Below, piece by piece: positions 2,999 to 48,540 of a stretch of DNA of 64,000 nt. This stretch comes from Lotus japonicus (Eukaryota > Streptophyta > Magnoliopsida > Fabales > Fabaceae). The first letter of the stretch is position 1, and the number at the start of each line of letters is the position of its first letter. The position numbers and the translations under genes are program-made. The stretch is taken from NCBI RefSeq assembly GCF_012489685.1, contig NC_080043.1, forward strand, positions 64,907,920 through 64,971,919, given 5' to 3'. The notes beneath the pieces are model-generated. The model had not been told where the DNA came from. It searched no databases and saw only the letters and a program-made list of their open reading frames with translations.

Positions 2999-3262
2999 GG
3001 GGTTGTGTTGTATTGACCGACACTAATCCCTTGGGTTCTCTTGTTGTTGGAGCTGTGTTGTATTGACCGACACTTAGCGCTCTTGTGGTTTGGGCTGTGT
3101 TGTATTGACCGACACTAGACCCTTGTGTACTATTGTGGTGGGAGTTGTGTTGTATTGACCGACACTAACTCCGAGTCGTGTTGTATTGACCGACACTGAC
3201 TCTGGCTTTGATCATGGGATCTATTGTGGTGGGAGTTGTGTTGTATTGACCGACACTAACTC
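2999..3262 (+). repeat. Hairpin minisatellite with six TATTGACCGACACT units (5' LTR)
   Basis: Six units share a GTGTTG/CGACAC stem around a TATTGAC loop. Outer arms vary together: GGAGTT with AACTCC (3141-3172), GAGTC with GACTC (3173-3202), GGGGTT with AATCCC (2999-3030). Each unit contains TTGACC, the W-box core recognised by WRKY transcription factors. The 3' LTR has seven units (23346-23641), so unit number differs within one element. Confidence 0.85.
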
Positions 3263-3347
3263 TTGGGTTGTTTTGAGATTGGGTTTGAGCTAAATGCTTG
3301 TGTGGTGAGGACGATTTGATGTTTGGCTAACCATATTGCATCAATCG

Positions 3348-3605
3348 GGTGAATAACGGGAATGGTTCACCTGTGCATCTCATGGTGAATAACGGGAATG
3401 GTTCACCAATGTGTTAATGATGAATAACGGGAATGGTTCATCATATGGTGAATAACGGGAATGGTTCACCAAGGGTGAATAACGGGAATGGTTCACCAAG
3501 GATGAATAACGGGAATGGTTCATTCAGGATAAATAACGGGAATGGTTCATCCATAGTGAAGAACGAGAATGCTTCACTTGTGGCGAACGGGAACGCGTCA
3601 CAATC
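3348..3605 (+). repeat. Hairpin minisatellite with GAATAACGGGAATGGTTC units (5' LTR)
   Basis: There are about nine units, mostly 27-36 bp apart. Each is a 24-nt inverted repeat with a loop around TAACGGGAATGG. Arms change in pairs: GGTGAA/TTCACC (3384-3407), GATGAA/TTCATC (3419-3442), AGTGAAG/CTTCACT (3555-3578). The same array is in the 3' LTR (23728-23990) and, reversed, in LTR F (about 58720-58900). Open frames across it are periodic by-products. Confidence 0.88.
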
Positions 3606-3821
3606 CGGATCATGTTGATTGCATTTCACGCATACATTCATTCTGACTGGGATTGCGTGCTGTTTGATTTATTGAAGCAATGTTTGAGCCATAACATGCT
3701 AGGATTATCTATATGTTTATATGACAACATATGTATCTATACCCCATATCACATGTTGAGTATGTTGAGTGTATATCTACTTATTTCTGTGAGTTGACCC
3801 TAGCGCCATGGCTTTGTTTGT

Positions 3822-4175
3822 ATGTTTGTGATTGGGCGGTCGGCCTGCTGCCAGATGTCTATGGCCGACTGGTTCTCGACGGTCTCTCCCTCGGGGGGGA
3901 TCAGATATGAGCTAGTGGATAGGGATGCCCCCGTCGCTTGGGTGATCGATGTTGCTGGTCACCGAGCGACGTACAGGGGAAGGGTCATGGAGGACCGGAC
4001 TGACGAGCGTGGATGTCTGACGAAAGGAGTTCTACGACGCATGGAGCTGAGCTTCAACTTGCCAACTTCAGTTCGCTGTGGACTCGTTCATGTGAGCAGT
4101 TATGGGAGGGTAGGTTTAGGCAGGCGTCATATTTTGTGTAGAGCTCTGATTCGTCTTACTTTTGGGACAGGGTAG
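3822..4175 (+). CDS. LTR-encoded open frame, shortened version (117 aa)
   Basis: It begins MFVIGRSACCQMSMADWF and runs 117 codons. Residues 1 to about 92 match the amino half of the 233-234 aa frames in LTRs F and F' (57775-58479 and 63195-63896). The acidic, serine-rich carboxyl half is missing: F and G1 agree up to the codons after a shared CTGTGGAC. They agree again at GGGAGGGTAGG, so an internal deletion is the simplest reading. Its position, within the long leader and upstream of gag, would make it an upstream frame in unspliced RNA. I recognise no known domain. Whether it is translated is unknown. Confidence 0.45.
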   Translation: MFVIGRSACCQMSMADWFSTVSPSGGIRYELVDRDAPVAWVIDVAGHRATYRGRVMEDRTDERGCLTKGVLRRMELSFNLPTSVRCGLVHVSSYGRVGLGRRHILCRALIRLTFGTG

Positions 4176-4570
4176 GTTCCCGATGCATGGCTTTCCGTGT
4201 GGTTCTCTTATTGAGGGATCACAGTGAGTCAGTCGGACTGTAGGGGTCTTTGCTTAGGCCATTTTGAGGTCGACTTTCTCCTAGTGGGTTGTAATTATAA
4301 ACTTTCTTACTCACACTTCTGGGTCTGTATATATTTGCCTGCGGGCACACGACTTTGGAGTCACTGCGAGTGCACGTGACGGGAGAGTGCAGCTGAGGAT
4401 GTACATGTGTATATTTGATGTATATTGGTTAGTTTAGTGGTTGGGCTATGTCTTTATTCTCTATTGCTTTATTTAAAAGGGATCATCGGAAGAAAAAAAA
4501 TTACCTGTTTTCCGCGTAGAGTTTATTTTTGGTTACTAAAGTGGCACCTGGAAATCGGGGTGTTACATTG

Positions 4571-4582
4571 TGGTATCAGAGC
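4571..4582 (+). other. Primer binding site of G1 (tRNA-Met type)
   Basis: TGGTATCAGAGC begins 3 nt after the 5' LTR. This is the usual plant retrotransposon site complementary to the 3' end of initiator tRNA-Met and primes minus-strand DNA synthesis. Confidence 0.95.
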
Positions 4583-4775: not shown

Positions 4776-6477
4776 ATGGTGAACACGAATCAGCTAGCAG
4801 AGATGATGGCCACTATGGCCCAGGCAATGACTAACCAAGCGAATGACAATGCTTTGAGGCGTACTGCGGAGGAAGCGCGTGAACAACACCAGCGTCAGAG
4901 GGAGGCGACTCTGGACCAGAACAAAGGGTTGAATGACTTCAGGAGACAGGATCCACCTAAGTTCTCGGGAGGTACTGACCCAGACAAAGCCGAACTCTGG
5001 ATAGAAGAAATTGAGAAGATCTTTGGTGTGCTACAGACTGCTGAGGGAGCCAAGGTGGGAATGACAATCTTTCTGTTGTTGGGAGATGTTGAGTACTGGT
5101 GGAGAGGTGCCAGAGGGATAATGGAAGCCAATCATGTTGAGGTGAACTGGAATTCTTTTCGAACAGCTTTTCTCGAGAAGTATTTCCCAGACAGTGCTCG
5201 TGACGAGCGTGAATCACAGTTTCTGACTCTTAAACAAGGAAGCATGACCATTCCGGAATATGTTGCCAAGTTAGAGTCTTTGGCAAAATACTTTCGATTT
5301 TTCCGTGACCAAGTTGATGAGTCCTACATGTGCAAGAGATTTGTGAGGGGATTGAGGCCTGACATTGAGGATACAGTGAGACCGTTGGGGATCACGAGAT
5401 TTCAAGCATTGGTTGAGAAAGCAATAGATGTGGAGTTGATGAAGAATCGAAGGTATAATAGGGTTGGAACCGGAGGACCAGTGAGGTCGACACCACAAAA
5501 TGTTCAAGGAAGGGGAAGGTTTCAGGCGAGGAAGCCATATCAACGTCCTGCGGGGAGAGGGTTTACCCCGGGATCTTACAAGCCGATGGCTGCTGCTGCT
5601 ACTTCTGGAGGGTCGGGAAGCCGTACCCAGAACCGTGAGATGACTTGCTTTCGATGTGGAGGGGCCGGACACTATGCCAATAATTGCACGAAGCCACCAA
5701 GATGCTATAACTGCAATAAATCTGGGCATCTAGCGATGGATTGCAAGGCACCAAAGGCTGAACCGTCTGTGAATGCCGTTAGTGGGAAGCGCCCAGTGGC
5801 GAAGGGAAGAGTGTATACCATGGATGGAGAAGAGGCTGAAGGAGCAAATGGATTAATCAGAGGAGAATGTGAAATTGACGGTAATCTTCTAACTGTACTC
5901 TTTGATTCTGGTGAAACTCATTCATTTGTCTCTAAGGATTGCGTATCAAGACTGCATCTGCCTATTACTACTTTGAGTTTTGATCTTATGGTAACTACAC
6001 CTGCTAGGACTTTAATTGCTAATGCCGCATGCATGCACTGTTCAGTAGTATATAGAGATAGAACTTTTCATGCCAACCTAGTATGTCTACCCCTTAAAAA
6101 CCTAGATGTAATCCTCGGGATGGATTGGTTATCCCATTACCATTGTCTTTTGGACTGTAGTCGAAAGAAAGTGGTGTTCCCAGACTCGGATCTTTTCGAG
6201 TATCTTTCTATTAACCACATTAGTGCATCATTGAGCGAGGGCACTCAGAGGTACTTTTCGTTGCTAAGTCTGGAAGGGAAGAAGGAACCGGATATTCATG
6301 GTATTCCGGTGGTTCGAGATTTTGCGGATGTTTTTCCTGGAGATGTACCTGGACTACCGCCTGTGCGAGATGTGGAGTTTGTGATCGACATTGTACCTGG
6401 AACAGGACCGATTTCGATTGCGCCTTACCGTATGGCACCTGCGGAGTTAGCAGAGTTGAAATCTCAGTTGGAGGATC
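4776..6477 (+). CDS. G1 Gag and aspartic protease
   Basis: The start ATG at 4776 gives [16 protein letters not shown], like the gag start of element E. Residues about 75-205 form a retrotransposon Gag domain ([20 protein letters not shown] near 136-155). A basic linker follows, then two CCHC zinc knuckles at 291-304 and 310-323, which bind the RNA genome. The protease begins near 372; its active-site motif reads DSGE (377-380) where DSGA is usual, followed by ILGMDWL at 446-452. The frame stays open to 6617, but after about 6477 the residues no longer match the family. The reverse transcriptase frame takes over there, so a small deletion with frame change is inferred. Gag looks functional; the substitution beside the catalytic Asp may impair the protease. 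Confidence 0.9.
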
Positions 6478-9098
6478 TTGCGACCAAGTGTATCACCGTG
6501 GGGAGCGCCAGTGTTGTTAGTCAAGAAGAAAGACGGAAGGTCGAGATTGTGTGTGGATTATCGACAACTGAACAAGGCGACGATCAAGAACCGATACCCG
6601 TTGCCGAGGATAGATGATTTGATGGATCAATTACGAGGGGCTGCCGTATTTTCCAAGATAGACTTGAAGTCAGGCTACCATCAGATCAGAGTGAAGACTG
6701 AGGATATACCAAAGACTGCATTCAGAACACGCTACGGACATTATGAGTACCTAGTGATGTCGTTTGGAGTGACAAATGCACCTGCTGTTTTCATGGATTA
6801 CATGCACCGCATCTTTCATGAATTCTTAGATCGGTTTGTGGTGGTGTTTATCGATGATATACTGATATATTCGAAGGACGAGAAGGAGCATGAAGGACAT
6901 TTACGCCAAGTTCTACAAGTGTTGAGAGAAAAGAAGCTGTATGCGAACCCTTCCAAGTGTGAATTCTGGCTGGGGGAAGTTAATTTCTTAGGCCATGTGA
7001 TCTCAAAGGAAGGCATAGCTGTGGATCCAGCGAAGGTAGAGACTGTTTTGGCTTCGGAGCAACCGAAGACAGTGACAGAAATCAGAAGTTTTGTGGGTTT
7101 AGCTGGATATTATAGACGCTTCATTGAGGGATTTGCCAAGATTGTTGGACCTTTGACTCAACTGACGAGGAAGGATCAACCTTTTGCATGGACTGAGGCG
7201 TGTGAATCAAGTTTCCAGACTCTGAAGGAACATTTGACGACGTCACCTGTGCTTATTTTGCCACAACCGGAGGAACCTTATGAGGTTTATTGTGATGCTT
7301 CGTATCAAGGCTTGGGATGTGTGCTGATGCAACATCGAAAGGTGGTGGCTTATGCTTCGAGACAGCTGAAGACTCATGAGAAGAACTATCCAACTCACGA
7401 TTTAGAGTTAGCTGCCATTGTGTTTTTGCTGAAAATATGGAGACATTATCTCTATGGTTGTACTTTCACGATATTTAGCGATCACAAGAGTCTTAAATAC
7501 TTGTTTGATCAGAAGGAGCTGAACATGAGGCAACGAAGATGGATGGAGTTTATCAAAGACTATGAGTTTACGCTGCAATATCACCCTGGGTAGGCGAATG
7601 TAGTTGCTGATGCTTTGAGTAGAAAGATGCATGTCTCGTCAATGATGGTTAAAGAGCTGGAGCTGCTAGAACAATTTCTAGATATGAGTTTAGGTGTGAC
7701 ACCGTCTGAGGGAAAGTTGAAGTTCAGAATGATCAGAATTGCCAGTGGACTGATGGAAGAGATTAGAGAGCTACGACTGCAAGATGAGTTTCTGCTGGAG
7801 AAGAGGAACTTAGTAATTCAAGGGAAAGACCCGGAATTCAAGATCGGAACTGATGATATCTTAAGATGCAAGGACAGAGTGTGTGTACCCAATAATCCAG
7901 AATTGAGAAGGCTAATCATGGATGAAGGGCACAAGAGTAAATGGAGTATTCATCCGGGAATGACAAAGATGTATCAAGATTTGAAACTGAATTTCTGGTG
8001 GCCAGGAATGAAGAAACAAGTGGCTGAGTATGTCACTGCATGTTTGACTTGTCAGAAGGCGAAGGTAGAGCATCAAAGACCTGCAGGTATGCTACAGAGT
8101 TTAGACGTGCCAGAGTGGAAATGGGATAGTATATCCATGGATTTTGTGGTAGCTTTGCCAAGAACACAGAAGAGAAACGATTCGATTTGGGTGATTGTGG
8201 ACCGTTTGACCAAGTCAGCGCATTTTCTACCAGTGAGAACTACCCACAATGTAGAGAAGTTGGCTGAGATTTATGTGGCGGAGATTGTGAGACTACATGG
8301 AGTTCCGACAAGTATTGTGTCTGATCGGGATCCAAAGTTTACTTCGCACTTTTGAGGAGCTCTTCATGATGCGTTAGGAACCAAGCTGAGGTTGAGTTCG
8401 GCGTATCATCCACAAACTGATGGACAAACAGAGAGAACTATTCAGTCGCTAGAGGATCTACTACGAGCTTGTGTGTTAGATAACAGAGGAAGCTGGGATG
8501 ATCTTCTGCCATTGGTTGAATTCACCTACAACAATAGTTTTCATGCGAGTATTGGGATGGCACCGTATGAAGCTTTGTATGGTCGAAAGTGTAGGACACC
8601 GTTGTGTTGGTATCAAGATGGGGAGAGTTTGTTGATTGGGCCGGAAATGCTGCAACAGACGACTGAGAAAGTTAAGCAGATTAGAGAACAGATGAGAGCT
8701 TCACAGAGCAGACAGAAGAGTTATGCTGATCAGAGACGTAGAACCCTAGAGTTTGAGGAAGGTGACCATGTGTTTCTACGAGTTACTCAGACTACGGGAG
8801 TTGGACGAGCTATTAAGTCAAGGAAGCTCACGCCAAAGTTTATTGGGCCTTATCAAATCACTCGACGTGTTGGACCAGTTGCGTATCAGATTGCACTACC
8901 ACCATTTCTTTCCAACTGAAGGATGATTTGACCTTTGAGACACCGCCAGTGAGTATTGGGGATAGAAGAGTAAAACAGCTGAGGGGAAAGCAGATTTCGT
9001 TGGTAAAAGTGATATGGAACAGGGATACGGGGGACGCTACATGGGAATTGGAAGACAAGATCAAGGAACTGTACCCTGAACTTTTTGCTGAACTCTGA
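6478..9098 (+). pseudogene. G1 Pol: RT, RNase H, integrase, chromodomain (broken)
   Basis: RT motifs are clear from 6478: [10 protein letters not shown], the catalytic FIDD (residues 124-127 of that frame), then RNase H with CDAS and a downstream Glu and Asp. A TAG at 7591-7593 interrupts the frame just after RNase H. Integrase follows in the same frame from about 7600: zinc-binding H, H, C, C (residues 106, 113, 143, 146 of the 7615 frame) and catalytic Asp in MDF and SDRDP. A TGA at 8353-8355 stands where the family has Trp. The third acidic residue is in the 8392-8919 frame. A further deletion and frame change near 8917 precedes a chromodomain remnant (KVIWNRDTGDATWELEDK, ending at TGA 9096-9098). 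Chromodomains direct integration to marked chromatin. Four lesions make this copy unable to code full Pol. Confidence 0.92.
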
Positions 9099-9123
9099 GT
9101 TTCGAGGACGAAACTTTCTTTTT

Positions 9124-9135
9124 GGAGGGGAGTAT
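9124..9135 (+). other. Polypurine tract of G1
   Basis: GGAGGGGAGTA lies directly before the TGTAAGACC start of the 3' LTR, in the usual place for plus-strand priming. Element E has the matching GGAGGGTAGTAA before 52921. Confidence 0.8.
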
Positions 9136-9721
9136 TGTAAGACCTGGATTTTCAGAACAAGTTAGTTTCCGACTCACGCGTACAATCAGTGTAAGCATGA
9201 CAGGAGTTTGATATTTGAGAAAGATTAATGAAGAAGAAAGTTCAGGAATTGCTTGAGAAATGTTGCGTAGTCGCTGTAGGAGTTAGTGCGAGTCATCTGC
9301 ACACATGCCTTATGGCGAGCGTGTCCAGAATAGGCTAATTCGCCTTTAGAGCAACGTTTTAAGTGAGATTTCCAATCCTTGGAAAATTTAAAGGTTCTCT
9401 TTATTTTTCCTTCGACCAGCGTTTCATTTCGGAACTCTGTACTGTACGCACGATAATATTCACTTTCCGGAAGTCCGACGACGCTAGTTTCTTTGCTTCG
9501 AAACCCTAGATTCGAGCGATGGATGAAGACTTTTTCTATTCGGGACTTCTAACGAAGTTTCCGTCCGCGTTGCCAGATTTTTTCGACATTTCCAATCTTT
9601 CTTCAGTAGGAAGTTTTATCGTTTGAGCATCACAGCAAAAAGTAGTTTTTCGGGACGGATTAACTTACACCGCTTTTGGGATTTTAGATATCGTTTTTCC
9701 CAAATCATAGGTATTTGTTTT
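9136..9721 (+). repeat. 3' LTR of G1, first part
   Basis: It starts TGTAAGACC and matches 852-1437 closely. It stops at GTTTT (9717-9721), which is repeated after the copia insertion at 21784-21788, giving the copia target duplication. Confidence 0.93.
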
Positions 9722-10927
9722 TGTAAGATCAAGTTTTGATCTAGTAGTGCAACTCTATGTTTTGATGATTACAAGTTAACCTTTTGATATGAACAATTGT
9801 GGTACTCTAACGTGTTTTTCTGAGTGTGCTATTTACAGGCTCTGACCTCAACTCAATCTCACACAAATCAGAAGCACTGTGTATAAAGGGTAACCCAAGC
9901 AACGCTTTCGCATTCACCATGTTCAGTATGAACAGTGGAAAAGCTTCAGAAGTTCTGAAGCTATACAAACTCTGATGTGGACTCAGTCGCTAGAAGCTCT
10001 GAAGATCCAGAAGTTCTGATAACCAAGAAACACTGAAGGATCAGATGTTCTGATGGTGTAGAAGACTCTGAAGATCCAGAAGCTGAATAGTGGAAACTCT
10101 GAAGTCCAGAAGCAAGAAACTCTGAAGGCCATGTTCTTCCCTCTGAGTTCAGAATCAGAAGATACAATGGTCAGAGGATCTGTGCTTTCCCTCTGACTCT
10201 GATCAACCGGCTTCACAAGTTCCAATATGAAGTATTCCCCTGATCAGAAGTCTCCTAGGTTAAAAGGTCAAGTCGCTATCCAAGTACAAAAGCAAGTGTA
10301 CCTTCCTGACGACCTACCTAATGTTCTCAGCCACAGCAGAAGCTGGATTTTCCAGAACTGCCCTCCAACGGTAGCATTTCCCATGCAACGCTCAACCCTA
10401 ATCCTTGGAGTATATATAGAGGCTGAAGATTGAAAGAAGCGGCAAGAAGCAACACACACGCGCAAGACATATTAAAAATATTCTAAGCTTTCTTTCATCT
10501 GAAATTCATTGTGTTTACTATCAGCTTTTTAGAAGCAAATCTCTTGTAAACAATTCTTTGATAAACAGTTTGTTTAGTTCCTTTAGGAGATCAAGGTTGA
10601 TCGGATCCTAGAGAAGACTAAGAGAGTGAATCTTAGTGTGAGCTAAGTCAGTGTAATTGTTAGTCACTTGTAGGTTTCAAGTGCAGTTGTAACTCTTACC
10701 TGATTAGTGGATTGCCTTCATTCTAAGAAGGAAGAAATCACCTTAACGGGTGGACTGGAGTAGCTTGAGTGATTTATCAAGTGAACCAGGATAAAATCCT
10801 TGTGTGCTTTTCTATCTCTTATCTTTAGCACTTAAGTTCTCGAAAGATTTGTCAAAATCTTTAAGGTGGTAGTTTTGTACTGAAAACGTTATTCAAACCC
10901 CCCTTTCTACCGTTTTTCATACCTTCA
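9722..10927 (+). repeat. 5' LTR of the Sirevirus
   Basis: It runs from TGTAAGATC to ACCTTCA, 1206 bp, and is matched by 20578-21783. It is rich in AGAAGTTCTGA and CTCTGAAG-type short repeats, as is the rest of the element. Confidence 0.97.
10411..10419 (+). promoter_or_regulatory. TATA box of the Sirevirus 5' LTR
   Basis: TATATATAG stands 690 bp into the LTR; the 3' LTR copy is at 21267-21275. The RNA start is expected about 30 nt downstream. Confidence 0.75.
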
Positions 10928-10929
10928 AT

Positions 10930-10941
10930 TGGTATCAGAGC
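10930..10941 (+). other. Primer binding site of the Sirevirus
   Basis: TGGTATCAGAGC begins 2 nt after the 5' LTR and would pair with the 3' end of initiator tRNA-Met. Confidence 0.95.
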
Positions 10942-10999
10942 GCAAGTTCTGATTACCACACCTAACAGTGTTCAGTGATCCGGGCCGGTGTGAAAAACA

Positions 11000-12910
11000 A
11001 TGGCTGCCACCACCAGTGAAACTCAAAGAGATGGTTACAACGCAAAGCCTCCTATGTTCGATGGTCAAAGGTTCGAATATTGGAAAGATAGACTGGAAAG
11101 TTTCTTTCTGGGTTTCGATGCAGATCTCTGGGATATTATTGTGGATGGCTATGAGCGTCCAGTTGATGCAGATGGCAAGAAGATCCCAAGGTCAGAGATG
11201 ACTGCAGATCAAAAGAAGCTGTACTCACAACATCACAAAGCAAGAGCAATTCTTCTAAGTGCTATTTCCTATGAGGAGTACCAGAAGATTACAGATCGTG
11301 AGTTTGCTAAAGGCATTTTTGATTCTCTGAAGATGTCTCATGAAGGAAACAAGAAAGTCAAAGAATCAAAGGCATTGTCTTTGATCCAAAAGTATGAATC
11401 CTTCATCATGGAGCCAAATGAGTCCATTGAAGAAATGTTCTCCAGATTTCAATTGCTTGTAGCTGGCATACGACCTCTCAACAAGAGCTACACAACAAAA
11501 GATCATGTCATAAGGGTCATCAGGTGTCTTCCTGAAATTTGGATGCCTTTGGTGACTTCAATAGAGCTCACGAGAGATGTTGAGAATATGAGTTTAGAAG
11601 AACTCATCAGCATTTTGAAATGCCATGAGCTGAAGCGCTCAGAGATGCAAGATCTAAGGAAAAAGTCCATAGCCTTGAAATCCAAATCTGAAAAGGCTAA
11701 AGTTGAGAAGTCAAAGGCTCTCCAAGCTGAAGAAGAAGAATCTGAAGAAGCATCAGAAGATTCTGATGAAGATGAGCTGACTCTGATCTCCAAGAGACTC
11801 AACCGCATCTGGAAGCACAGGCAGAGCAAGTTCAAAGGCTCTGGAAAGGCAAGAGGAAAGTCTGAGTCCTCAGTTCAGAAGAAGTCATCAATCAAGGAAG
11901 TCACTTGCTTTGAGTGCAAAGAATCAGGGCACTACAAAAGTGACTGTCCAAAATTGAAGAAGGACAAGAAGCCAAAGAAGCACTTCAAGACCAAGAAGAG
12001 TCTGATGGTGACATTTGATGAATCAGAGTCAGAGGATGTTGACTCTGATGGTGAAGTCCAAGGACTCATGGCCATTATCAAAGACAAAGGAGCAGAGTCA
12101 AAGGAAGCTGTTGACTCTGACTCAGAATCAGAAGGAGATCCTAACTCAGACGATGAAAATGAGGTATTTGCTTCTTTCTCTACCTCTGAACTGAAACATG
12201 CTTTGTCTGATATCATGGATAAGTATAACTCTTTATTGTCTAAGCATAAAAAGTTGAAAAAGAACTTATCTGCTGTCTCCAAGACTCCTTCTGAACATGA
12301 GAAAATTATTTCCGATTTGAAAAATGAAAATCATGCTTTGGTAAATTCTAACTCTGTGCTTAAGAACCAGATTGCTAAGTTAGAAGAAATTGTTGCCTGT
12401 GATGCCTCTGATTGTAGAAATGAATCTAAGTATGAAAAGTCTTTTCAAAGATTCCTAGCTAAAAGCGTGGATAGAAGCTTAATGGCTTCAATGATCTATG
12501 GCGTAAGCAGAAATGGAATGCATGGCATTGGCTATTCTAAACCAATTAGAAATGAGCCTTCTGTGTCTAAAGCTAAATCCTTGTATGAATGCTTTGTTCC
12601 CTCTGGTACCATATTGCCTGATCCTGTACCTGCTAAAGTTGCTAAAAACCCTCTTAAAAAGGGATCTTTCTCTATGACTAAATATCATGCAAATATTCCT
12701 TTAAAATATTATGTTGAGACACCCAAGGTGATCAGAACCTCTGGGGTAACTAACAAAAGAGGACCCAGAAAGTGGGTACCTAAGGACAAGATTATCTATG
12801 TTGCAGATATCCTTGATAGCTCCACTGAAACACCAATCATGGTATCTGGACAGTGGATGCTCGCGTCACATGACGGGAGAAAAGCGTATGTTCCGAGAGC
12901 TGAAACTTAA
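11000..12910 (+). CDS. Sirevirus Gag (636-codon frame)
   Basis: ATG at 11000 follows the PBS by about 60 nt. Residues 15-215 resemble the copia Gag (UBN2-type) domain, for example [20 protein letters not shown] near 17-36. Acidic Glu/Ser stretches follow. One CCHC zinc knuckle ([14 protein letters not shown]) is at 303-316, with a Lys-rich tail and a second acidic stretch. The last roughly 38 codons overlap the pol frame, which lies in the +1 register. It packages the element RNA into cytoplasmic particles. The long region after the zinc knuckle is normal for Sireviruses. Confidence 0.92.
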
Positions 12911-15887: not shown

Positions 15888-16329
15888 AGATGGATCAGAA
15901 CCTCTGACTATGATACTTCTTGATCAGAAGATGTCTAGTCCAGAAGGTAACTCAATCAGAGTGTGTGTGCCCACTGGTACTGACTCTGAAGCTGAGACAA
16001 CAACACGTGCGTCAGAATTTCTGATGCATAGTTCCTTGTGCCCGTGTGACAGTCTGTTATGATTGCGTGTAGATATGCTTATCTCCTGTGTGTGATTGTG
16101 TATTTTACTGTTACTATCTATCTTTAATTTTCAACCGTTGATCTTAAAGTGCTTTTTGAATCAACAACGGTTATTTGATAAAACCCACTATACACACACG
16201 TTCTCGTTCACTTCCGGTTTTCACTCTCGCTCTCTTTGCTTTTCAAAAACCGCTCCTCTCGATTTCTCTCTCGATCTCTCTTCATCCTTCAAACTTCATC
16301 TTCTACCTCAAACCTTCAACCTCTTCAAA

Positions 16330-19179: not shown

Positions 19180-19287
19180 TTTTAGGATCTCTTCTTTTTC
19201 TTTCTTTTTATTTAACGTTGTTTTTGTTAAACTCTGTTTCCTTTTTATTTTACTTATTTTAATTTGTTCGTTTGTGATTCTATATGC

Positions 19288-19309
19288 ATATATATATATA
19301 TATATATAT
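19288..19309. repeat. (TA)n microsatellite
   Basis: Eleven or so TA units lie between the env-like stop and the antisense unit. It probably varies in length between copies. Confidence 0.9.
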
Positions 19310-19339
19310 CTTTGTGTCACATATGTTTGCTAAACTCGT

Positions 19340-19345
19340 TTTATT
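19340..19345 (-). terminator. AATAAA poly(A) signal of the antisense unit
   Basis: On the minus strand AATAAA lies about 46 nt after the stop of the antisense frame, a typical plant spacing for a near-upstream element. Confidence 0.45.
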
Positions 19346-19391
19346 CATAACTTGTTTTGTGTTTACATCATATTTCTTTACATCATATAAT

Positions 19392-19768: not shown

Positions 19769-19817
19769 TTTTTTTACTAAAAATTATTCGAGGTGTGAAG
19801 CTTACCTTTCTCTCCAA

Positions 19818-19830
19818 CGCTTTTTATAGG
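19818..19830 (-). promoter_or_regulatory. TATA box of the antisense unit
   Basis: Read on the minus strand this is CCTATAAAAAGCG, a good plant TATA box about 50 nt before the antisense ATG. It lies outside the LTRs, so it would be an internal promoter. Confidence 0.5.
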
Positions 19831-20017
19831 CTTCACTTTCTCTCTGAAAGTTAATGCTCTTACAGTTTCTCGAGGTTAAGTTCTTGGTAACTGACCCTTC
19901 TATTTACTCACTTGACCGGTGGTAAACGTTCATCCCTTGCATTAACTCTTCTATTTATTTTTCGCCTAACTCTGATTCTTACATCGTTTTCATTTTCTTT
20001 TAAACTTAGACCTTCTC

Positions 20018-29389: not shown

Positions 29390-29398
29390 TAAAAAGTT

Positions 29399-30092: not shown

Positions 30093-30101
30093 TAAAAAGT
30101 T

Positions 30102-33700: not shown

Positions 33701-34119
33701 ATAAGGTTAGAGACAAACTTAAATGGAAACTATTTTACAAGGAAAATTCATAATATACTAAACAACCTCTAAACCTCTTAAATAATGATAAAAGTCTCAG
33801 ACGAAAGCTTAGGGCTTGGACATTAGTTTTGGAAAATGAGAAGTGTTGCCGAATCCAAGTTTTGGGGAAATTCCTTGTGCTTTGCACTTTGGGTATTCTT
33901 GGAGTTAATATCTTTTCTCGCAAAATTGACATTTACCTTCGGGTATTCTTGGAGTTAATATTCTAATTGGACACGTGTGAGTCCGTAAATTCGACCATGC
34001 AAGGTTGAATCGACTCGACGATGTATTGTAGAGATAATGGGTTCTAGTTAGGTACGAATCTGGGCAAGGACGAATCGTTGTCTGACTAACCATATTGCAT
34101 CATGCATTCATACTTTTGT

Positions 34120-37368: not shown

Positions 37369-37446
37369 GTTCAACTGTGGAAACTTTGGGGTTGACTGAA
37401 CAAGCTTGTGAGAGAGACCTACACCGCGAGATTGGAACAACTCGAG
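37369..37446 (+). other. 78-nt exon-like segment in LTR B
   Basis: Bounded by CAAAG| and CTCGAG|GTTAGG. It is close in sequence to the E segment (47417-47494) and the same length as those in G1 and C. A 662-nt putative intron separates it from GAG|GTATAG at 36706. Confidence 0.5.
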
Positions 37447-38319
37447 GTTAGGGAAACTTACTTACTAGCTATTATACTGTAGGCGTCGATAAATTCGACT
37501 TGAATATTGCTTGATATTGAAGATTGCTTGGATATTGTTTATCGCTTGAAACTGTGAATTATTTTCTGGAGGCTTCGGCCGAGTAAAACTTATATGAGAC
37601 GTGTGTCTCCGTTTTCTGAGAGGCTTCGGCGGTTTACTGGTTTCTGTCTTATGATTCCCGCACCGTATTATTGTTTCATCGCTTATTGGAGCATGATATT
37701 GTTGAATTGATGTTGAATTGTGCGTGTTGACGCGATTGCGGAGCGTAGGACATTTGAGTTGATTTTGTTGATTTTTCGGGTTGAAAGAATAACCCTAGGC
37801 GGGCTCTGTCGGAGGTCTGAGACCTAGCCCTTCTTTTGAAAAACTTAGACTTTTCCCGGGGATTATATTTGGGAGATTTGGGGAACTTTGAATAGTTAGA
37901 ATATGGAACTTGGATTTCGATAATAAACCTCATAACTTGATTAACTCAACTTGAAATGCTTTGATTAATTAACAAAACCTTTAGGGATACTTAAGAGTTG
38001 GAAATGATTGTGAAAAACGGGAAATAGTCGAAAAGCCTTGAACCTTAGATGATTTGATGGTCGCCACGGGGGTGAACCATAGTGACCAGGGAAATGGCAC
38101 TGAGTGTAATATGTACTCCGGCTTATGACAGCCTCGTCGCAAAGACGACTTTGACCTTCGGGTGTTACATTTAAGTTGAGATTTGTAGTTAAACACGTAC
38201 GAGCGAGGGTGTCTCGATGTTTAGATAACCGTATTGCATCATGCATATACTCGGGGTTAGGACGGTCGAAAGACTGGGCCTTCACGAAGAACACTGAGAG
38301 TGTATCTTCGACTTTGCGG

Positions 38320-38790
38320 CGCGAATCCGTATGTCTGAACCCGATGGGTGGACCGATTCGACAATAATCGTTTGACACGCGCGAGTCTGTATATTCAATC
38401 TGATGGATTGGATCGATTCGGCAGTAGTCACTCAGGCACGCGTGAGTCCGTATGTTCAATCCGAGGGATTGGATCGATTCAGCGATTGCCATTTTAACTC
38501 GCGTGAATCTGTATGTTCAATCTGAGGGATTGGATCGATTCAGCGATAACCTTCTAACTCGCGTGAATCCGTATGTTCAATCCGATAGATTGGATCGATT
38601 CAGCGACGACCTTTCGACACGCGCGGATCCGTATGTTCAATCGATGGATTGGATCGATTCGGCGATAGTCATTGGATGCGCGCAACATCCGTATGTTCGA
38701 CTCTATTGAGCGAACCGACTTGGCGTTGTCATTTGTTGCGTGTGTGAGTCCGTATGTTCAACCCGATGGGTTGGATGGACTTGACATGCC
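38320..38790 (+). repeat. Hairpin minisatellite in LTR B
   Basis: Same family of units as in LTR A, about 60 bp each. Examples: CAATCC/GGATTG at 38457-38471 and CAACCC/GGGTTG at 38759-38773. Confidence 0.85.
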
Positions 38791-39813
38791 TAATTGTTGG
38801 GATCACCTGTTGAATTGACATTACATGCATACATGCACCCTTATTGAATTGTTGAGCCACTATTTATTGAACTGTTGAGATAGCAGATATCGAATTGTTT
38901 ATTAGAGCCTTGATGACATGCTAAGTATATACCTTAGGGTAGGCAATACATAGGTTATACGTCTATATACAACATATATATATATATATCCCCTTATTCT
39001 TCAAATGTTGGTTGTATATCTACTGTATACTGTAAGTTGACCCTAGCGCCTTGGGTTTGGTTGCATGTTTGTGTTTGAGCGGTCGGCCTGCTGCCAGACG
39101 TTCAACGGCTGATTCGTGATGGTTCGCCGTTCGGGGAGGACCCGGAGCGAAATGATCTCTACTGAGCCTTCGACGTGGACCCGGACCGAATGCATGACCA
39201 GATGAGGGTCGATGATGGAAGTATAGGGTATGGGTGTTTAGAGCCTATTAAGGTTGGGTGTTAGTGTCATAGCTCTGACTGTCATTTCTCATATTGGGGC
39301 AGGATAGGTTCCCGACTATTAGCTTTTCGTGTGGTTCTCTTCCATGGGGATCACAGGGAGTTGTCGGACGTAGGAAGTCTTTTGGAGGCCGTTTTGGGCT
39401 GACTTACTTTCTTGGAGGAATGTATTCATAAAACTTATGACTTTGCCTATGAGTCGCACTTGTTTGCCGTTGGGCAACACTTTTAGTTACTTGTTGTTAC
39501 TTTCCGTCACTCGAGGACACTCGTGACGATGTTTTTAGTTGCAGCGAGGGTTGTGCCTATATTGTATATTAATCGCTGATAATCGCGATTGGGTTGAGAC
39601 TTTATTTCGACAAGTCTTTTATTTAAACAAAATGAAAAAAAAAACCTGCTTTTCCGCTTTACTTGAATTTGGTTACTAAAGTGACGCCACCGAAATCGGG
39701 GTGTTACATCTTTTATCTGGAAAGAAAAACGAAAAAAAAATATACATGATTTTCCGCTTTATTTTGATTTTGGTCTACTAAAGTGACCCCCAGAAATCGG
39801 GTGTTACACATAG

Positions 39814-40691
39814 TAATGTTGGTCTTGGTTGGCCTTCTCTCTCCTAGTTTTCACGCTTCAACAGTCGGCTTTCTCCCTTCATGGTCAGTCTTCTCTCTCT
39901 CTCCTGGTTTGTGTACTTCACCGATCGACCTCCTCCTTCCACAGCGGTCGACCTCCTCCTCTACCGCACCGGTTGACCTCCTCCTATACCACACCAGTCA
40001 ACCTCCTTCTTCCCTGGTCGGCGTTCTCTCTCTTGGTTCGTGCGCTTCACCGGTCGAACTCCTCCTCTACCGCACCGGTCGACCTCCTCCTCTACCGCAC
40101 CAGTTGACCTCCTTCTTCCCTGGTCGGCGTTCTCTCTCCTGGTTCGTGCGCTTCACCGGTCGACATCCTCCTCTTCCGCACCGGTCGACCTCCTCTTTCT
40201 ACAACCAGCCTTCTCTCTCCTTACTCATGTGCTTCATCCCTTCTTTCCTTACTTGGTCTTCTCTCTCCTCTTTCATGTGCTTCGCCGGTCGACTTCCTCC
40301 TTCTACGGTCGGCACCGGTCCACTTCATCTCTCCTTTTTTCATCCTTTTTTCCTTCTTCTTTTTTATGCTTATCAGTTGTCTTCATTTATTTATTTGAAG
40401 TTTTCCCTTAAGCAAGTGTTGAAATCTCCGCTTGCGCATTTGGCAACGGCGTGGCAGGCTTGGTTACTCGACCCAGCATGCGTGACATGCTTATTTGAGT
40501 AAAAAGGTGATGTATTTTCGGCGGAGAAGTGATGCACTTGGTAAAGTAACCAAGTGGTGTGACCTCGATGCCAAACATGGAGTTGGCGGAGAAGCGACGT
40601 ACTTGTTCGAGAAATCAAGTGGTGGGACCTCGTCGCCGAACATGAAGTTGGCGGAGAAGCGACCGCTTGGATAAGGGAAACCTGAATAAAA
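39814..40691 (-). repeat. Interior of element D with CTCC/CGGTCGACC minisatellite
   Basis: From 39890 to 40330 there are irregular repeats of CACCGGTCGACCTCCTCCT. CCGGTCGACC is itself near-palindromic. From 40500 the ACTTGG...CCAAGT hairpin units of 44486-44890 begin. Long open frames on either strand follow the repeats and have no domain. Confidence 0.7.
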
Positions 40692-42212
40692 TGGACAAGA
40701 CCCAAGTTTTTAGTTTATACCAAAGTGAATAAAATTCTTATTCGCGATTAGGTTTGATGTATCGTGAAGGGAAACCTGAACAAGAGTTTATCGAATGGAA
40801 TATATTTATGAAGGAGAAAGTTCAGGAAAAGTCTAAGGATTGCATCAAAATTGATAAAAGGTATAGCACGATCGATATACGCTTAAATCTAGGGCAAAAA
40901 CACAAGTGAATAGCTAGTTTTCACTAAAAGGCACGATGGAAACTAATTCCAAAAATCTTCAGAGAAATGTTAAAACTTCTCTTGATCGTCTATAAACAAC
41001 CGTTTCGTTACGAAACCCTTGAATGTACGAACGTCCGATTCCAATCCTCGGAAGTTTGCCGAAACGAAAACCCTGATAGTTCAAGAAACCTAGAATCAAC
41101 CGACGATGAAGACTTTTTCTATTCGGAGCTTCAAATGAAGATTCCATACGCGTATACCCATTTCTCTTGATGTTTTCAATCTTTCTTCAGAAGGAATTTT
41201 GTCTTCCGACAATCACTGCAAAAAGTAACTTATCGGGTAAAATAGATTTACACCGACTTTGCATTATTCACTTTAATTCCAAGAAAACCTCTGTTGAGTT
41301 TTGGAATTCTGTAGCCAAAACCTATCTTAGAATTCACGGAGAATGAAGCCGGAAAAATCGGAATCGCGAAACTTTCATTTTCCCGCGTTTTGCCAACCTC
41401 TATATATAGCAAGAAAATGAGAAAAAATGGCAAAACTTCACCATTTTCTCTCCCAAAACCCGCGAGCTTCACCAAGAGGAGGAGGAGAAGAGATTTTCGC
41501 CATTTCTTGCTTGATCGTTGATTCAACAGTTGCTACTTGAAGGTATCGAGGTATAGTCGCTAATCCTTACCTCTGATCGTCGTTTCCGTAGTTTTTCACT
41601 ATGTCTTTCTGTGCTCTTAGTTTTGAGGTTTTTGCAAAACTATCCAGATAACTTCATCTTTCTATCTAAACATCTTCCCTACGTTCCCAAGAGCATGTTT
41701 AGCGAATAATATTGCGCCGATTCTCGAAAAACTACCGTCGAGTTTCAATTCTGCTTCAAAAACCCATTTTGGGACAAAGTTCCGTCCTGTGGGCTGAAAA
41801 CTATCGCCTTAGCTTAGTGCTAGTAGGATTAGTTGTCATAAACGTCGTTGGTGACGTCCCCATCCAATTTGCTTTTCGAAATTCCAATTTTGAAATTCTG
41901 AGCTAAAAATATTGACCAAAATACCCCTGCGACAGTTTTCGATCCGATAATTTTTCTGAGCTTAGATTCGTCTTAGTTACGGCTAATAATAACCTAGGAA
42001 CCAAGTTTGATCGAAGAAAAATCGACCCACCTAAGTGTGCATAGTGGCCATGAGCTACCCCAGAGGAGGGGGAAAATTCCTTTTTCGAAAACTTGTCCTT
42101 TCGCGCTAGATTATCGTACTTCGGAGTATATGCTACTTCGAGTGACCCTAGTATCTATTGTTTGCTGAGTTTCTGACTCATTGTGATTGATTTCTGTGGT
42201 TTTGCTCTTAAG

Positions 42213-42290: not shown

Positions 42291-43002
42291 GTGAGGGCTT
42301 CTCACTGAACTACTAGTTAATGCTTAGGGTCGACGCATTCGACTTGATTTACTGTTTATGCACTTGTTTGTGTTTGATTGGGAAAAGTTTTCTGAGGCTT
42401 CGGCTGACAATGTAGATGATTCATCTACTGATTGTTTTTGAGATTGAATTACATGGTACGTGCTAAATGGTTAATCTAGGATGTGTGATATATGCTTTAA
42501 ATGCTAAGTGCTACGTGGTTATTCTAGGATGTGTTGATATATGACATGTTTGTTGATTGTGCTGATTTAACTGTGCCATTTCACATTTATTTGTGGTACT
42601 GAGGAGTGAGAATAACGGGCAGGTCATGCCGATTTTATTTTGAGATTTTGGGGAAAGTTTGATAGGACGAACGAAGATTCGGGCCTTGTTATGGTTGTAG
42701 TGGATCGAGACATTCTCTGGGAATTACTTGGGAATATAGAATCTTCGAAAAACTCATAAGAAATACGATAAGACTAAATGGAAGCTATTTTTACAATGAA
42801 AACTCATAAGATATTAAACAACCTCTAAACCTTTAAATAATGATAACACTCTTGGATGCAAGCTTTGGAATTGAATGTCAGTTTTAGAAAATGAGAATTG
42901 TCGTCGAGTCCAAGCTTTAGGAAAACTGTAAGTTCTGAGTATGTTGATACTCCTTCGGTCTTTGAGCAGTTTGTTTAGCCATCCAAGGGATGTGCCGAGA
43001 AT

Positions 43003-43219
43003 CTTCACTGAGGCGTGAGACCTCGTGAAATGCATGGATCTTCACTGAGGCGTGAGACCTCGTGAACAGCATGAAACTTCATTGAAGCGTGAGACTTCGT
43101 GCAAGTGTGTAAATTCACTGAGGCGTGAGACCTTGTGAAAGCATAAAACTTCACTAAAGCGTGAGACTTCGTGATGGTATAAGACTTCACTGAAGAGTGA
43201 GACTTCGTGAGAGCATTGA
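43003..43219 (+). repeat. Hairpin minisatellite in LTR C
   Basis: Six units of about 37 bp built on TTCACTGAGG, CGTGAGA and CCTCGTGAA, a stem with one bulged base. GAGG/CCTC (43047-43050 with 43058-43061) is replaced by GAAG/CTTC in the third unit (43084-43087 with 43095-43098) and again in the last unit. Confidence 0.85.
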
Positions 43220-44485: not shown

Positions 44486-44890
44486 ACACGCTTGGTTGAG
44501 AAACCAAGTGGTGCAGTGTCGACACCGAACATGGAGTTGGCGGAGAAGCGACACACTTGGTTGAGCAACCAAGTGGTGCGGTATCGACGCCGAACATGGA
44601 GTTGGCGGAGAAGCAACGCACTTGGTTGAGTAACCAAGTGGTTTTGGACCTCGACGCCGAACGTGGAGTTGGCGGAGAAGCGACGCGCTTGGTTGAGTAA
44701 GCAAGTGGTGCGGTGTCGACGCCGAATATGAAGTTGGCGGAGAAGCGACGCGCTTGGTTGCTCAACCGAGTGGTGCGGTGTCGACGCCGAACATAGAGTT
44801 GGCGGAGATTGAACACACCTGGTCGAGGACCGGGCGGTACGACCGGAGTCGGCGGAGGTTCAATGCACCAGTCAGGGACTAGGTGATTAG
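44486..44890 (-). repeat. Hairpin minisatellite in element D
   Basis: About five good and two worn units of roughly 65 bp. Each has a 9-bp stem such as CACTTGGTT/AACCAAGTG with loop GAGT (44619-44640). A diverged unit keeps pairing with CCTGGTC/GACCGGG (44818-44834). GAAGCGAC and CGACGCCGAAC are constant between stems. The array continues on the other side of LTR C at 40500-40680. Confidence 0.85.
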
Positions 44891-45565
44891 GCTCGACGCC
44901 TGACCGGAGTCGGCGGAGATCCTGAATGCATGATTGTTTTACTTCTTAGTATCCTTCAAAATTGCATGTTCCTCCTTTGTTTTCTGGGCGTTTATTATAC
45001 TCAAACCAACGGTTGGACATGGATTTGGTCGAAATATGAAGGTCCTTCGAAGGATCACAACGTTGCTCTGTTCCTGTGCTCAAATGAAAACACTATCTTA
45101 CCAAGTTAGTTTACCTTTGCTTGTGGGCGGATGGAAGATCTTCATTGTCGGTTATCGTCTCTGGCATACCCTCATTCTTTTCCTGCTCTTAAACCGAAGT
45201 GCGAGCATGCTCTGAAATTCCTCCATGGTTGTGTATCTGGATCAATCGGTCGGCATCCACCCGGTGGACTTCCTTCGTCCTTATAGGTCGTGATCGTAGC
45301 GACATACCTTCTCGACATCGACATACCTATTGTCGACGAAAGTCTTCCTGCAAAACAAAGTTAATATTTTGACGGTAAGAAGTTTGGTGTTATACTTACA
45401 TAGTGTTTGCATATCTTCCCTCTAGATTTACGGATAGCCTTCAGTTCCAGACTTGCTGAGATGAGCGATGTCCTAGACAGCACCCTTCGTAGCCTTGGGC
45501 GGCTAGGCTGCGGTGGTAAGGCAGGGGATGGAGAAACTCTTGTAGAAGCCGGAATTTTTTACCAG
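44891..45565 (-). other. Interior of element D without a gene
   Basis: No gag or pol domain on either strand. This is the leader side of the element, next to its PBS. Confidence 0.5.
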
Positions 45566-45584
45566 GCCCCACGGTGGGCGCCAA
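45566..45584 (-). other. Primer binding site of element D
   Basis: On the minus strand TTGGCGCCCACCGTGGGG follows the LTR end CAGGAACA directly. TGGCGCC-type sites occur in Ty3/gypsy elements primed by tRNAs other than Met. Confidence 0.65.
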
Positions 45585-45780
45585 TGTTCCTGATATAAAC
45601 CCTAAGATCTAGATAGATGACCAAAAGACTTAGAGTGTTATTCCACTGTGTAAAAGCTAATCTACATAGAAGGCGAAAGTCTTCCTTTTATAGCAGGTCG
45701 ACCTCTGAACCCTTATCGACGTATTTATTACAATTGACCAATCATGCCCGTTAATGGGGCGTAATCACTACCGTGTCGGT
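45585..45780 (-). repeat. LTR of element D, right copy, cut by E
   Basis: Matches 30277-30472 and stops at GTGTCGGT, where TGTAAGACCC begins. The remainder is not seen to the right within the window. Confidence 0.8.
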
Positions 45781-47416
45781 TGTAAGACCCTAACCTTGCT
45801 TAAGTGATTTATTGAATAAAAGTGAAATTTCTAGTGAAGTTTGATTTAATTGCTAATCTGTCTGTGACCTTGTGTGAATTTTTGAGAGGTCTTAAAGACC
45901 TAATCTTGAAAAGCTTCCTTCATGAGAGTTGTATCTCTCTGAGTTAGCTAAATTCTCTCGTTGGTTTCAGGTCATTCCGACCTCTGTAGCCCGAGATAGT
46001 CATGTTTTAGTGACGGAAGGTCAGGCTGTATTGAACTAGCAATTTTGCTAGAAGAAAGTGTCTTAATTCCGAATTTATTTCTTTAATATCAAGGGAAGGA
46101 GTTTGCCTTGATTTATTTTATCCTCTTAATCAGTAGTTAGGAGAGTAATTAGTTGGACTTGGGCCAAGTTATGAGGGGAGAAGAGAAAAGAAACCCTAAA
46201 ATCTACGGACGATGAAGACTTTTTCTATTCAGAGCTTCAAACGAAGATTCCACACGCGTACACCCATTTCTCTTGATGTTTCCAATCTTTCTTCAGAAGG
46301 AAGTTTCTGCATCCGAGGTCAATATCATAAAGTGCATAAAGTGCATTTTTAATGCCGGTAAGCATTAAAAACAAGCCTCGAAAACCAAAAATCATACTGA
46401 TATTTCTTTGAAGAATTAAAAGATTCAGCGGGAAGAATATCGTGTCTAAAATACGTTGGAATCAGTAGGAAAAATCGGAATCGCGAAATAATCATTTTTC
46501 CGCATTTTCCAAATCCTATAAATAGGTGGAAAATGAAAAAAAAAAACAAAAAATTCTCACCTTTGACAGAGAGTGGCCGAGAGCTTGAGAGGAGGAGAGG
46601 AGAAGTTGATTTTCGCCGTTTCTTGCCCGATTGCTTCACCGTTCGTTGCTAATCGAAGACATTGAGGTATAGTTACTATCCCTCACTTCTGATCGTCAGA
46701 TCTGTCGACTTTTTCTATGTTTTTATGAGCTCAAAGTTTGGAGCTTTTTGTAAAACTGTCCAAATAAGCTGATTTTGGTGTCTAAACTTAATGCCTACGT
46801 GCTCTAGAGCATGAATATCCAGTTTTTTTCGACTGAATCCTGCCGAATCGTCGCAGAGGTCCAGTTTTCTGAAAATACCCATTTTCTGACAGAGGTTCCG
46901 CTTTTTGGATCAAAAACTCTCGACTGAGCTTAGCTTCAGTAGGATTAGTTGTTATAAATGTCGTTAGGATCGAGCTCATCAAATTTGTTTTTCGAAATTC
47001 TGATTTTGAGTTTCCGATCTAAAAATAATGACCAAAATACCCCTGCGACAATTTTCGACCCGATAATTTTTCTGAGAGTTTCCCTGGCCTAGATATCGCC
47101 TACTTGGGTACCGTGTCCAAAAATAATTTTTGGGTCTCTATGACCTGAGCCATTGCGTAGCTTTTTCAATTGTGGAAATTTTGGCGCCGGTTTCGTGTCA
47201 TTCCGAGTTCTGTAGCTCAAGTTATGCACGTTTTAGCGAATAAAGTGTTTTTGTACAAAACCTGAATCGAGTCAAAACTCATCCATTCGGGGAAAGCCCT
47301 TCCTTTCGTGCCTAAATGTTGTACTCTGAAGCTTCTTGAGCTTAGTCGAACATTAGTTAGGATTGTTTCGACTGTATCGACTTGTGTTGATTCATTATTG
47401 CTTTGTTTGCTCAAAG

Positions 47417-47494
47417 GTTCAATTGTGGAAACCTTAGGATTGACTGAACAAGCTTGTGAGGGAGACCTACACCGCGAGACTGGAATAACTCGAG
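47417..47494 (+). other. 78-nt exon-like segment in the E 5' LTR
   Basis: Bounded by CAAAG| and CTCGAG|GTTAGG, no ATG inside. The 3' LTR copy (54614-54691) has a changed donor (GAG|GGTAGG). An acceptor-like ATACAG ends at 49957, 3 nt before the gag ATG. Confidence 0.55.
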
Positions 47495-48239
47495 GTTAGG
47501 GCAACTTACTTACTAGCTATTTTTGTGTGTAGGCGTCGATAAATTCGACTTGAATGTATTGTGATCGTGAGTGGCAACTCACCGTTATTAGTTAATGACC
47601 TAGAGTCGACTTGTTCGACTTATTTGTTAAATTCTGCACAAATATTGCATGAACTGTTCTGAAAAATGTTTTCTGGAGGCTTCGGCCGAGTGAACTTATA
47701 TGAGACGTGTGTCTCCGTTTTCTGAGAGGCTTCGGTCGTTTACTGGTTTCTGTCTTATCGCTTTCTAGTGGACATGACAGGGTTATGTTTTGCAGCACTG
47801 CATTAATGTTCATCGCTCAATAGAGCTTGATGTATTTGTGTTTAAGATTAAATTGTGCTGACTGTATTCGTGCATTTAATGCGACTTTCGGAGTGTGGAT
47901 TACACTTATCTTCGTCATGGCAATGACGGGTTTGTTTTGGGAATGTTTGATAGGTCGAACCAAGGTTCGAGCCTTTATTGTTTTAGGAATCGAGACCTTC
48001 CCGGGGAATTACTTGGGTTTATTGGGATCTTTTTACTTATAGAGTTTTGAATCAAACGAAATCAGAACTTGATTTGTAAATGAAATTCATAATACACTAA
48101 TCAAAGATAGAACACTTTTAAATAATGATGATAACCTCTTGGAAAAGACTTAGGATGTGAAAATGGTTTGGAAAACGGGAAGGGTCGACAATCTAAGTGT
48201 GAGGAAAACTTTGAGTACGATAGCACCTTTTGTTCCTTT

Positions 48240-48540
48240 AGTGGTTTATCTAGCCATCCAAAGGATGAGCCTGGGATGATTGGAAAGTCCCCAAGTGCGA
48301 GTGCACCATCTTTGCTCATTGAGCAGCCTTTCGGCCATCGAGCTGATGAGCCTGAGTAAATTGAAAAGTCACTGAGTGCGAGCAGCATTCTCCTTGTTCG
48401 TTGAACAGTCCATTTGACCATCGAGCTGGTGAGTCAAAGTAACTTGAAAAGTCACTGAATGCCAGATGCATTCTTTTGCTCGTTGAGCAGTTTGTTTGGC
48501 CATCGTGACGGTGAGCCCAAGTGACTAGTAAAGTTACCAA
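48240..48540 (+). repeat. Hairpin minisatellite in the E 5' LTR
   Basis: Units of 82 bp with TGCTC/GAGCA (48313-48325 and 48477-48489) and the paired variant TGTTC/GAACA (48395-48407). Copies are in the 3' LTR near 55510-55690 and after the gap near 60930-61110. A second short array of GAGCGTGCTGCTTCAC units is at 48719-48830. Confidence 0.8.

Follow-up and report, generated by a model that had tools for sequence, protein, structure and literature searches.

What leads the long terminal repeats (LTRs) of related retrotransposons to carry, at corresponding places, tandem arrays that differ completely in sequence and are all described as built of short inverted repeats? The question is raised by a stretch of 64,000 nucleotides of the Lotus japonicus genome (assembly GCF_012489685.1, contig NC_080043.1, positions 64,907,920 to 64,971,919 of the forward strand; hereafter the window), which contains related Ty3/gypsy LTRs in a nested arrangement, each about 3.7-4.3 kb long. 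A preliminary description of the window had proposed that nearly every array unit is a hairpin, that differences between units are often matched on both arms, and that this reflects selection on pairing, probably in a long RNA leader. The analysis reported here suggests that the arrays are probably cis-acting RNA hairpins in the genomic-RNA leader of a related, chromovirus-like group of Ty3/gypsy elements. The tests support selection on pairing; a signature of sense RNA stands out clearly only in the array type shared by LTRs A and B.

The arrays were located in the window by Tandem Repeats Finder (TRF). They and the single hairpins associated with them are as follows.

2936 to 2990, + strand: two single-copy hairpins of G1, X (2936-2950) and Y (2974-2990), whose counterparts in other families have different stems
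2988 to 3269, + strand: G1 array 1 (3' LTR copy at 23338-23650)
3348 to 3600, + strand: G1 array 2, with loop AACGGGAA and a variable stem (3' LTR copy at 23729-23981)
33976 to 34016, + strand: single A-type unit, upstream of landmark L1
34114 to 34600, + strand: A array, inner stem TTCAATCC/GGATTGGA, outer stem GAATC/GATTC
38319 to 38790, + strand: B array, of the same type as A
42999 to 43216, + strand: C array, TTCAC-T-GAAG, loop CGTGAGA, CTTC-GTGAA
44486 to about 44860-44900, + strand: D array, 65-bp unit (other half at 40520-40697)
48284 to 48544, + strand: E array 1, 82-bp unit with three hairpins per unit (3' LTR copy at about 55482-55742, duplicate at about 60900-61160)
48736 to 48819, + strand: E array 2, 18-bp unit
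58674 to 58898, - strand: G2, array 2 of a related LTR, found by self-BLAST

The LTRs have two landmarks in common: L1 (around GTTTGGCTAACCATATTGCAT) and a block beyond it that is well conserved (GAGTTGACCCTAGCGCC...). These define two slots: G1 array 1, the C array and E array 1 stand just before L1, while G1 array 2, the A and B arrays and E array 2 stand between L1 and the conserved block. Array units are unrelated in sequence between families, as the preliminary description had it, except that A and B share one common type. Its statement that the arrays all lie in LTRs held for G1, A, B, C and E and failed for D, which is outside the LTR family, the C LTR having been inserted within the D array. 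The D array, so split, belongs to another element. In 200 kb of neighbouring genome, 19 further matches to the conserved block were found, including two more array types, one with a 79-bp unit (LTRs L056 and L057) and one with a 19/25-bp unit built on TACC-TTCG-GGTA (L058 and L059). The latter two LTRs (C3:64.82-64.84 Mb) carry ATATACCTTCGGGTACAGT units, the sense strand of which could form C(UUCG)G tetraloops; in A, C and E, too, a lone TACC-TT(C/A)G-GGTA precedes L1, and B has a variant of it.

The arm pairs that had been quoted are real: all six from G1 were present at their coordinates, and all nine from A/B, C, E and D occur in their respective arrays. As a claim about density, the statement that nearly every unit is a hairpin was overstated, because the density of short perfect hairpins exceeds that of 69 control blocks clearly only in G1; density was therefore dropped as a test. 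Fold z-scores are moderately lower in the array zones (about -1.0 versus -0.3 to -0.4). A G1 array 1 unit folds into an inner stem GTGTTG/CGACAC with loop TATTGAC and a variable outer stem, usually with at least one unpaired base on the 3' side. Two of the E hairpins, X and Y, have single-copy counterparts at homologous places in other families, in which pairing is kept with different stems: those of Y read, for instance, GAGTAC/GTACTC, GAGTAT/ATACTC or GAATGC/GCATTC, and those of X GGC..GCC or GAC..GTC; the search patterns admitted mainly paired forms, and these examples illustrate the point and are no test of it. The window gave no match to Rfam at the gathering score, and one exact pattern each, searched against viral and prokaryote contigs, gave none either.

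Whether the arms of a unit belong together was examined by an arm-swap test, in which a 5' half is folded together with a 3' half taken from a different unit. Within the window, in the sense strand, this gave P = 0.0006 for G1 array 1, 0.0002 for G1 array 2, 0.0002 for A/B and 0.033 for C; the values were 0.08 (sense) and 0.002 (antisense) for D, and 0.083, 0.29 and 0.33 for the three E hairpins (3-4 units each). Units were then pooled from a search of 553.7 Mb of genome (65 contigs). For G1, 40 genome places were scored, two of them the window's own, and 37 of the 38 others were pooled with the three window copies; for A/B, 20 of the 38 places outside the window were pooled with A and B of the window, and C units came from the window and the 200-kb neighbourhood. 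The distinct units thus numbered 84 for G1 array 1 (33 recurrent), 80 for G1 array 2 (21 recurrent) and 104 for A/B (19 recurrent). True arm pairs again folded better in the sense strand, with z = -7.4 for the recurrent units and -5.4 for the 51 singletons of G1 array 1, -7.0 and -9.5 (59 singletons) for G1 array 2, and -5.9 and -9.7 (60 of the 85 singletons) for A/B (P = 0.0005 throughout). When the centre of the hairpin was shifted, the effect was gone in eight of nine sense and all nine antisense controls. A tandem array without claimed hairpins (39945-40195) gave no arm-swap effect, and the C array read in an 18-bp frame, also as a control, gave P = 0.0485 in the sense strand at one of two offsets.

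Relatedness among units was taken into account by a tree-based null built, as in R-scape, by reassigning substitutions to other positions along a tree from FastTree (our own implementation). In the recurrent units of G1 array 1, pairs were kept in 88% of cases versus 72% under the null and double-change cells numbered 22 versus 4.7 (P = 0.0033 each), the statistic G giving P = 0.023. In those of G1 array 2, P was 0.0033 on all three measures, and in those of A/B, 94% versus 58% of pairs were kept and double-change cells numbered 28 versus 4.5 (P = 0.002 each; G, P = 0.018). The C array gave a weaker signal, both with the 14 of 18 distinct units that are in register (pairs kept, P = 0.003; doubly changed cells, 0.030; G, 0.12) and with its eight recurrent units (0.0066, 0.023 and 0.11, respectively). 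With the units of the window only, G1 array 2 and A/B reached P <= 0.014 on all three measures, and G1 array 1 gave 0.006 for double changes, 0.14 for covariation and 0.56 for pairs kept. A pair-count tool applied to the 12 A/B units of the window found a covariation of 0.283 versus 0.190 in shuffled units, with none of 500 shuffles as high, and at most 0.099 for slid partners; double-change cells were likewise matched by none of the 500 shuffles.

Covariation over many genomic units, the test proposed beforehand, therefore exceeds the phylogenetic null in recurrent G1 and A/B units. Changes matched on both arms, and with them selection on pairing, stand up strongly for both G1 arrays and for A/B, and weakly for C. 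The arrays of E and D have few variants or give no covariation signal: within the window, covariation was marginal for E hairpin X (P = 0.046) and absent for E hairpin Y, and D gave 0.37 for covariation and 0.006 for pairs kept; the window units of C, taken by themselves, gave 0.82 for covariation. The genome copies of E are useless in this respect because the 40 scored matches to the E zone (48200-48900), window copies included, are all 99-100% identical. Judging from these identities, family E is a recent burst.

Retrotransposon copies further allow changes that were transmitted to be separated from those that were not, on the premise that changed units found only once are mostly the product of post-insertion decay, while a unit shared between copies has been transmitted; this is an assumption, and it is blurred by recombination between units. 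Events were counted over the four arrays pooled, as rounded means of 20 parsimony reconstructions. Pairs were restored and lost in a ratio of 28:59 among inherited changes versus 6:107 among private ones (Fisher, P = 7e-7). Watson-Crick pairs turned into G.T or A.C in a ratio of 26:10 among inherited and 34:35 among private changes (P = 0.037). The matching transition classes in unpaired inherited columns gave 23:35 (P = 0.003 against 26:10), and mutation bias therefore does not explain the excess of G.T. In A/B alone, the ratio was 15:4 inherited versus 18:18 private (P = 0.047). At aligned G1 stem positions (L027, in which the landmark is missing, was dropped), a paired change from A-T to G-C marks a subfamily of 16 of the 39 copies, while changes found in one to three copies are mostly one-sided. 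The differences between paired LTRs that fall in stems (G1 and E, assigned by reading) are one-sided in five of five cases, one of which (48217) lies in a Y-like hairpin outside the E array proper.

The loops of G1 follow a pattern of their own. The seven loop positions of array 1 show no change in 33 recurrent units and 16 changes in 54 single-copy units, in a set collected with up to 7 mismatches in the 19 core positions. In array 2, where the alignment was made between landmarks and not from loop matches, the 64 loop columns contain no shared and 15 private changes versus 14 and 28 in the 62 spacer columns (Fisher, P = 0.012); the 96 stem columns contain 5 shared and 27 private changes. The best reading of these counts is that the G1 hairpins may be under selection for their loop sequence as well.

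The position of the arrays relative to the other parts of the G1 element bears on the proposed leader.

851 to 4567, + strand: G1 5' LTR (self-BLAST; 96.7-97.1% identical to the 3' LTR)
1543 to 1549, + strand: TATA-like box of G1, within CTATAAATAG, 1.77 kb upstream of L1
4571 (G1) and 49753: primer site of the tRNA-Met type, TGGTATCAGAGC
4776 to 6617, + strand: G1 gag-protease reading frame, which the leader would precede
9135 to 9721 and 21784 to 24947: G1 3' LTR, split by another element

Of 25 LTRs, 17 have an exact CTATA(A/T)ATAG box 1.5-2.2 kb upstream of L1, and 20 have one with at most one mismatch 700-2800 bases upstream of L1. Should this box be the promoter, the RNA leader would probably contain the arrays, about 1.5-2 kb from its start and before gag. 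The long RNA leader of the preliminary description has thus found indirect backing, from the box upstream in most LTRs and the primer site and gag downstream. A location of the arrays in U3 had first been considered on account of a TATATATA tract, and was set aside given the TATA-like box upstream. In G1, the 3.2 kb from the box to gag contain 65 ATGs, so that translation of gag would need splicing, shunting or internal entry.

As regards the class of the host element, we take TGGTATCAGAGC to pair with tRNA-Met. Four reading frames of G1 (4776-8919) contain the Pfam domains gag, protease, reverse transcriptase, RNase H and integrase in this order. A chromodomain was looked for after the integrase; the 56-amino-acid frame at 8928-9098 has no Pfam match and presumably resembles the end of one. 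According to PMC6317226, a tRNA-Met primer-binding site is found in most chromoviruses and not in non-chromoviruses. The primer type thus points to a chromovirus as the putative host of the G1 arrays.

If transcription starts near the TATA-like box 1.5-2.2 kb upstream, the array would be carried as part of the leader. Selection would keep the arms paired. In the tests made here, the arms change together, inherited changes keep or restore pairs more often than private ones do, and inherited one-sided changes lean, in the pooled counts and in A/B, towards the wobble that only sense RNA tolerates; in the G1 arrays, moreover, the loops change less than the spacers or the outer stems. The repeated loops might present several sites to one partner, most likely the element's own Gag, for packaging or dimerisation, although this step is less certain and a guess. 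Tandem duplication would multiply one hairpin type per family, and each family would thereby acquire its own array at the same place. The hairpins would presumably serve in packaging or translation. A wider proposal, namely that two leader slots are filled family by family with exchangeable hairpin recognition tags, probably for packaging, by which related elements of one genome tell their RNAs apart, the slots turning over by local amplification under selection on pairing and loops, is tentative and, taken as a whole, rather doubtful.

It should be noted that a number of results weigh against RNA hairpins selected in a leader. The stems were taken from the sequences themselves, which favours the measure of pairs kept. 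When all units of G1 array 1 are considered, double changes (P = 0.12) and G (0.69) are not above the tree null (pairs kept, P = 0.010), and neither is G for all A/B units (0.44). In the 12 A/B units of the window, neither doubly changed pairs nor further pair types are in excess, since 66 and 443 of 500 shuffles, respectively, had at least as many, and one shifted-centre control of A/B, +15 in the sense strand, remained significant (z = -5.7), which may be due to its sharing part of the stem. The event counts leave out 28 of the 84 G1 array 1 units, which are in odd register, and the events are not fully independent because the trees are those of short units that also recombine. When all stem transitions are taken, 42:31 compares with 23:35 in unpaired columns at only P = 0.053, and G1 alone gives 9:6 versus 15:16 (P = 0.54), so that the sense asymmetry rests mainly on A/B. 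Raw G.T and A.C mismatch cells stand at 39:15 in the window units, but at an unskewed 28:32 (array 1) and at 30:21 (array 2) in all distinct G1 units; this raw comparison was dropped as a test, the split into inherited and private changes being the informative one. The loop of A/B varies, and loop recognition is therefore not supported there, while in G1 array 2 a difference between stem and loop columns is not established. As to the leader, five of the 25 LTRs, A and B among them, lack the TATA-like box, some of the 25 are the two LTRs of a single element and hence not independent, and a box with one mismatch allowed also turns up in 74 of 300 pieces of 2.1 kb drawn at random from the window, its LTRs included. 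Finally, the P values quoted are uncorrected for multiple tests.

The main rival explanation, which we consider unlikely as the sole cause, is template switching, also called quasi-palindrome correction, at the stage of reverse transcription or of DNA replication. One arm would be copied onto the other, and tandem inverted repeats would arise and persist through mutation, with no selection involved. Published work shows that template switching can create and maintain hairpins (PMC8794818), with paired stem changes like those seen here, and can extend the arm identity of quasi-palindromes in yeast (PMC3820800); for tandem arrays of plant LTR elements, an origin by illegitimate recombination or by abnormal strand transfer in replication has been put forward as a hypothesis (PMC7004042). 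The contrast between inherited and private changes does not by itself count against copying during reverse transcription. However, the process is strand-symmetric and predicts no excess of G.T, whereas the pooled inherited counts are 26:10. It should also erase bulges and wobbles, but among the recurrent units of G1 array 1 in which the inner stem forms, 29 of 31 keep an excess of unpaired bases on the 3' side, and a T.G pair of the same array is kept in 83 of 84 units beside changed outer stems; nor does it explain fixed loops. Conversion of whole palindromes, one of the outcomes that would have spoken against the preliminary description, likewise fits badly with the retained bulges, the retained wobble pair and the larger number of G.T than of A.C. 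Template switching may still contribute to the origin of the hairpins. Very improbable is the view that there is no special cause and that the paired changes simply follow from kinship among units and from palindromes having been picked by eye: hairpin density is ordinary outside G1, and E and D lack a clear signal, but the tree nulls with recurrent units and the shifted-centre controls oppose this view for both G1 arrays and for A/B, and it is already disfavoured.

Two further explanations accept a function and place it elsewhere. A compact structured leader might let ribosomes shunt past upstream AUGs, or enter after them, to reach gag. Pararetroviruses with long structured leaders use shunting, and the 65 ATGs that precede gag in the putative G1 leader would fit; on the other hand, shunting needs an overall shape and not repeated fixed loops, and many small hairpins would not join the ends of the leader. 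We regard this translational role as possible, if somewhat unlikely. Alternatively, the arrays could act as DNA, either as promoter or enhancer repeats of U3 or as cruciforms. Tandem, subfamily-specific U3 repeats are known from Tnt1-type elements, and in A, B and E the arrays are followed, farther downstream, by the TATATATA tract. The Tnt1-like repeats are, however, DNA elements upstream of the TATA box, whereas here the TATA-like box lies upstream of the arrays, at a similar place, in 20 of the 25 LTRs; moreover, the arms vary from unit to unit, which is incompatible with a single DNA-binding site, and the pooled inherited mismatches favour G.T. A function as DNA thus appears improbable.

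Some observations on the host elements and their nesting may be added. The G1 3' LTR is interrupted at 9721-21783 by another LTR element, whose own LTRs are 99.6% identical. G1 array 1 has six units in the 5' LTR and seven in the 3' LTR (3238 versus 23588-23619), which implies gain or loss of a unit after insertion. LTR B (35380-39708) sits inside LTR A, near its 3' end, and A apparently resumes at 39727-39808. E has two LTRs. The blocks 53690-58574 and 59106-64000 are 99.8% identical, with a gap of 100 N between them, and represent either a recent tandem duplication or an assembly artefact.

Retroviral packaging signals consist of leader stem-loops with conserved loops, and the arrays resemble these in their probable leader position, in the presence of several hairpins and, in G1, in their variable stems and constant loops. 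Packaging signals bind Gag/NC and direct encapsidation, a role that the arrays may share; to our knowledge, tandem arrays that change identity between related families have no parallel among them. Among plant Ty3/gypsy elements, Ogre/Tat and Retand carry a hypervariable, family-specific tandem-repeat 3' untranslated region (PMC7004042, PMC11963269; Macas 2009, via PMC7004042), and the arrays of Lotus are similar to these in being short, family-specific and fixed in place. However, the former belong to non-chromoviruses and are placed after pol and ahead of the 3' LTR, whereas those described here lie in the LTR, apparently in the leader, and consist of covarying hairpins. A text search found no mention of 'secondary structure' (either source), 'hairpin' or 'stem-loop' (PMC11963269) or 'palindrom' (PMC7004042), and among the papers listed in searches of the open-access literature none was found to describe hairpin arrays, covarying or otherwise, in the LTRs or leaders of plant elements. 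Family-specific arrays are therefore known, and hairpin covariation in arrays of the LTR and putative leader would be the new part.

Tandem arrays of plant retrotransposons have so far been read as by-products of replication and as seeds of satellite DNA. If the arrays of these Lotus elements are indeed selected RNA structures, other such minisatellites may also be functional leader elements. Units that are repeated within and across copies represent a natural experiment in compensatory evolution, for which dead insertions provide a built-in neutral control.

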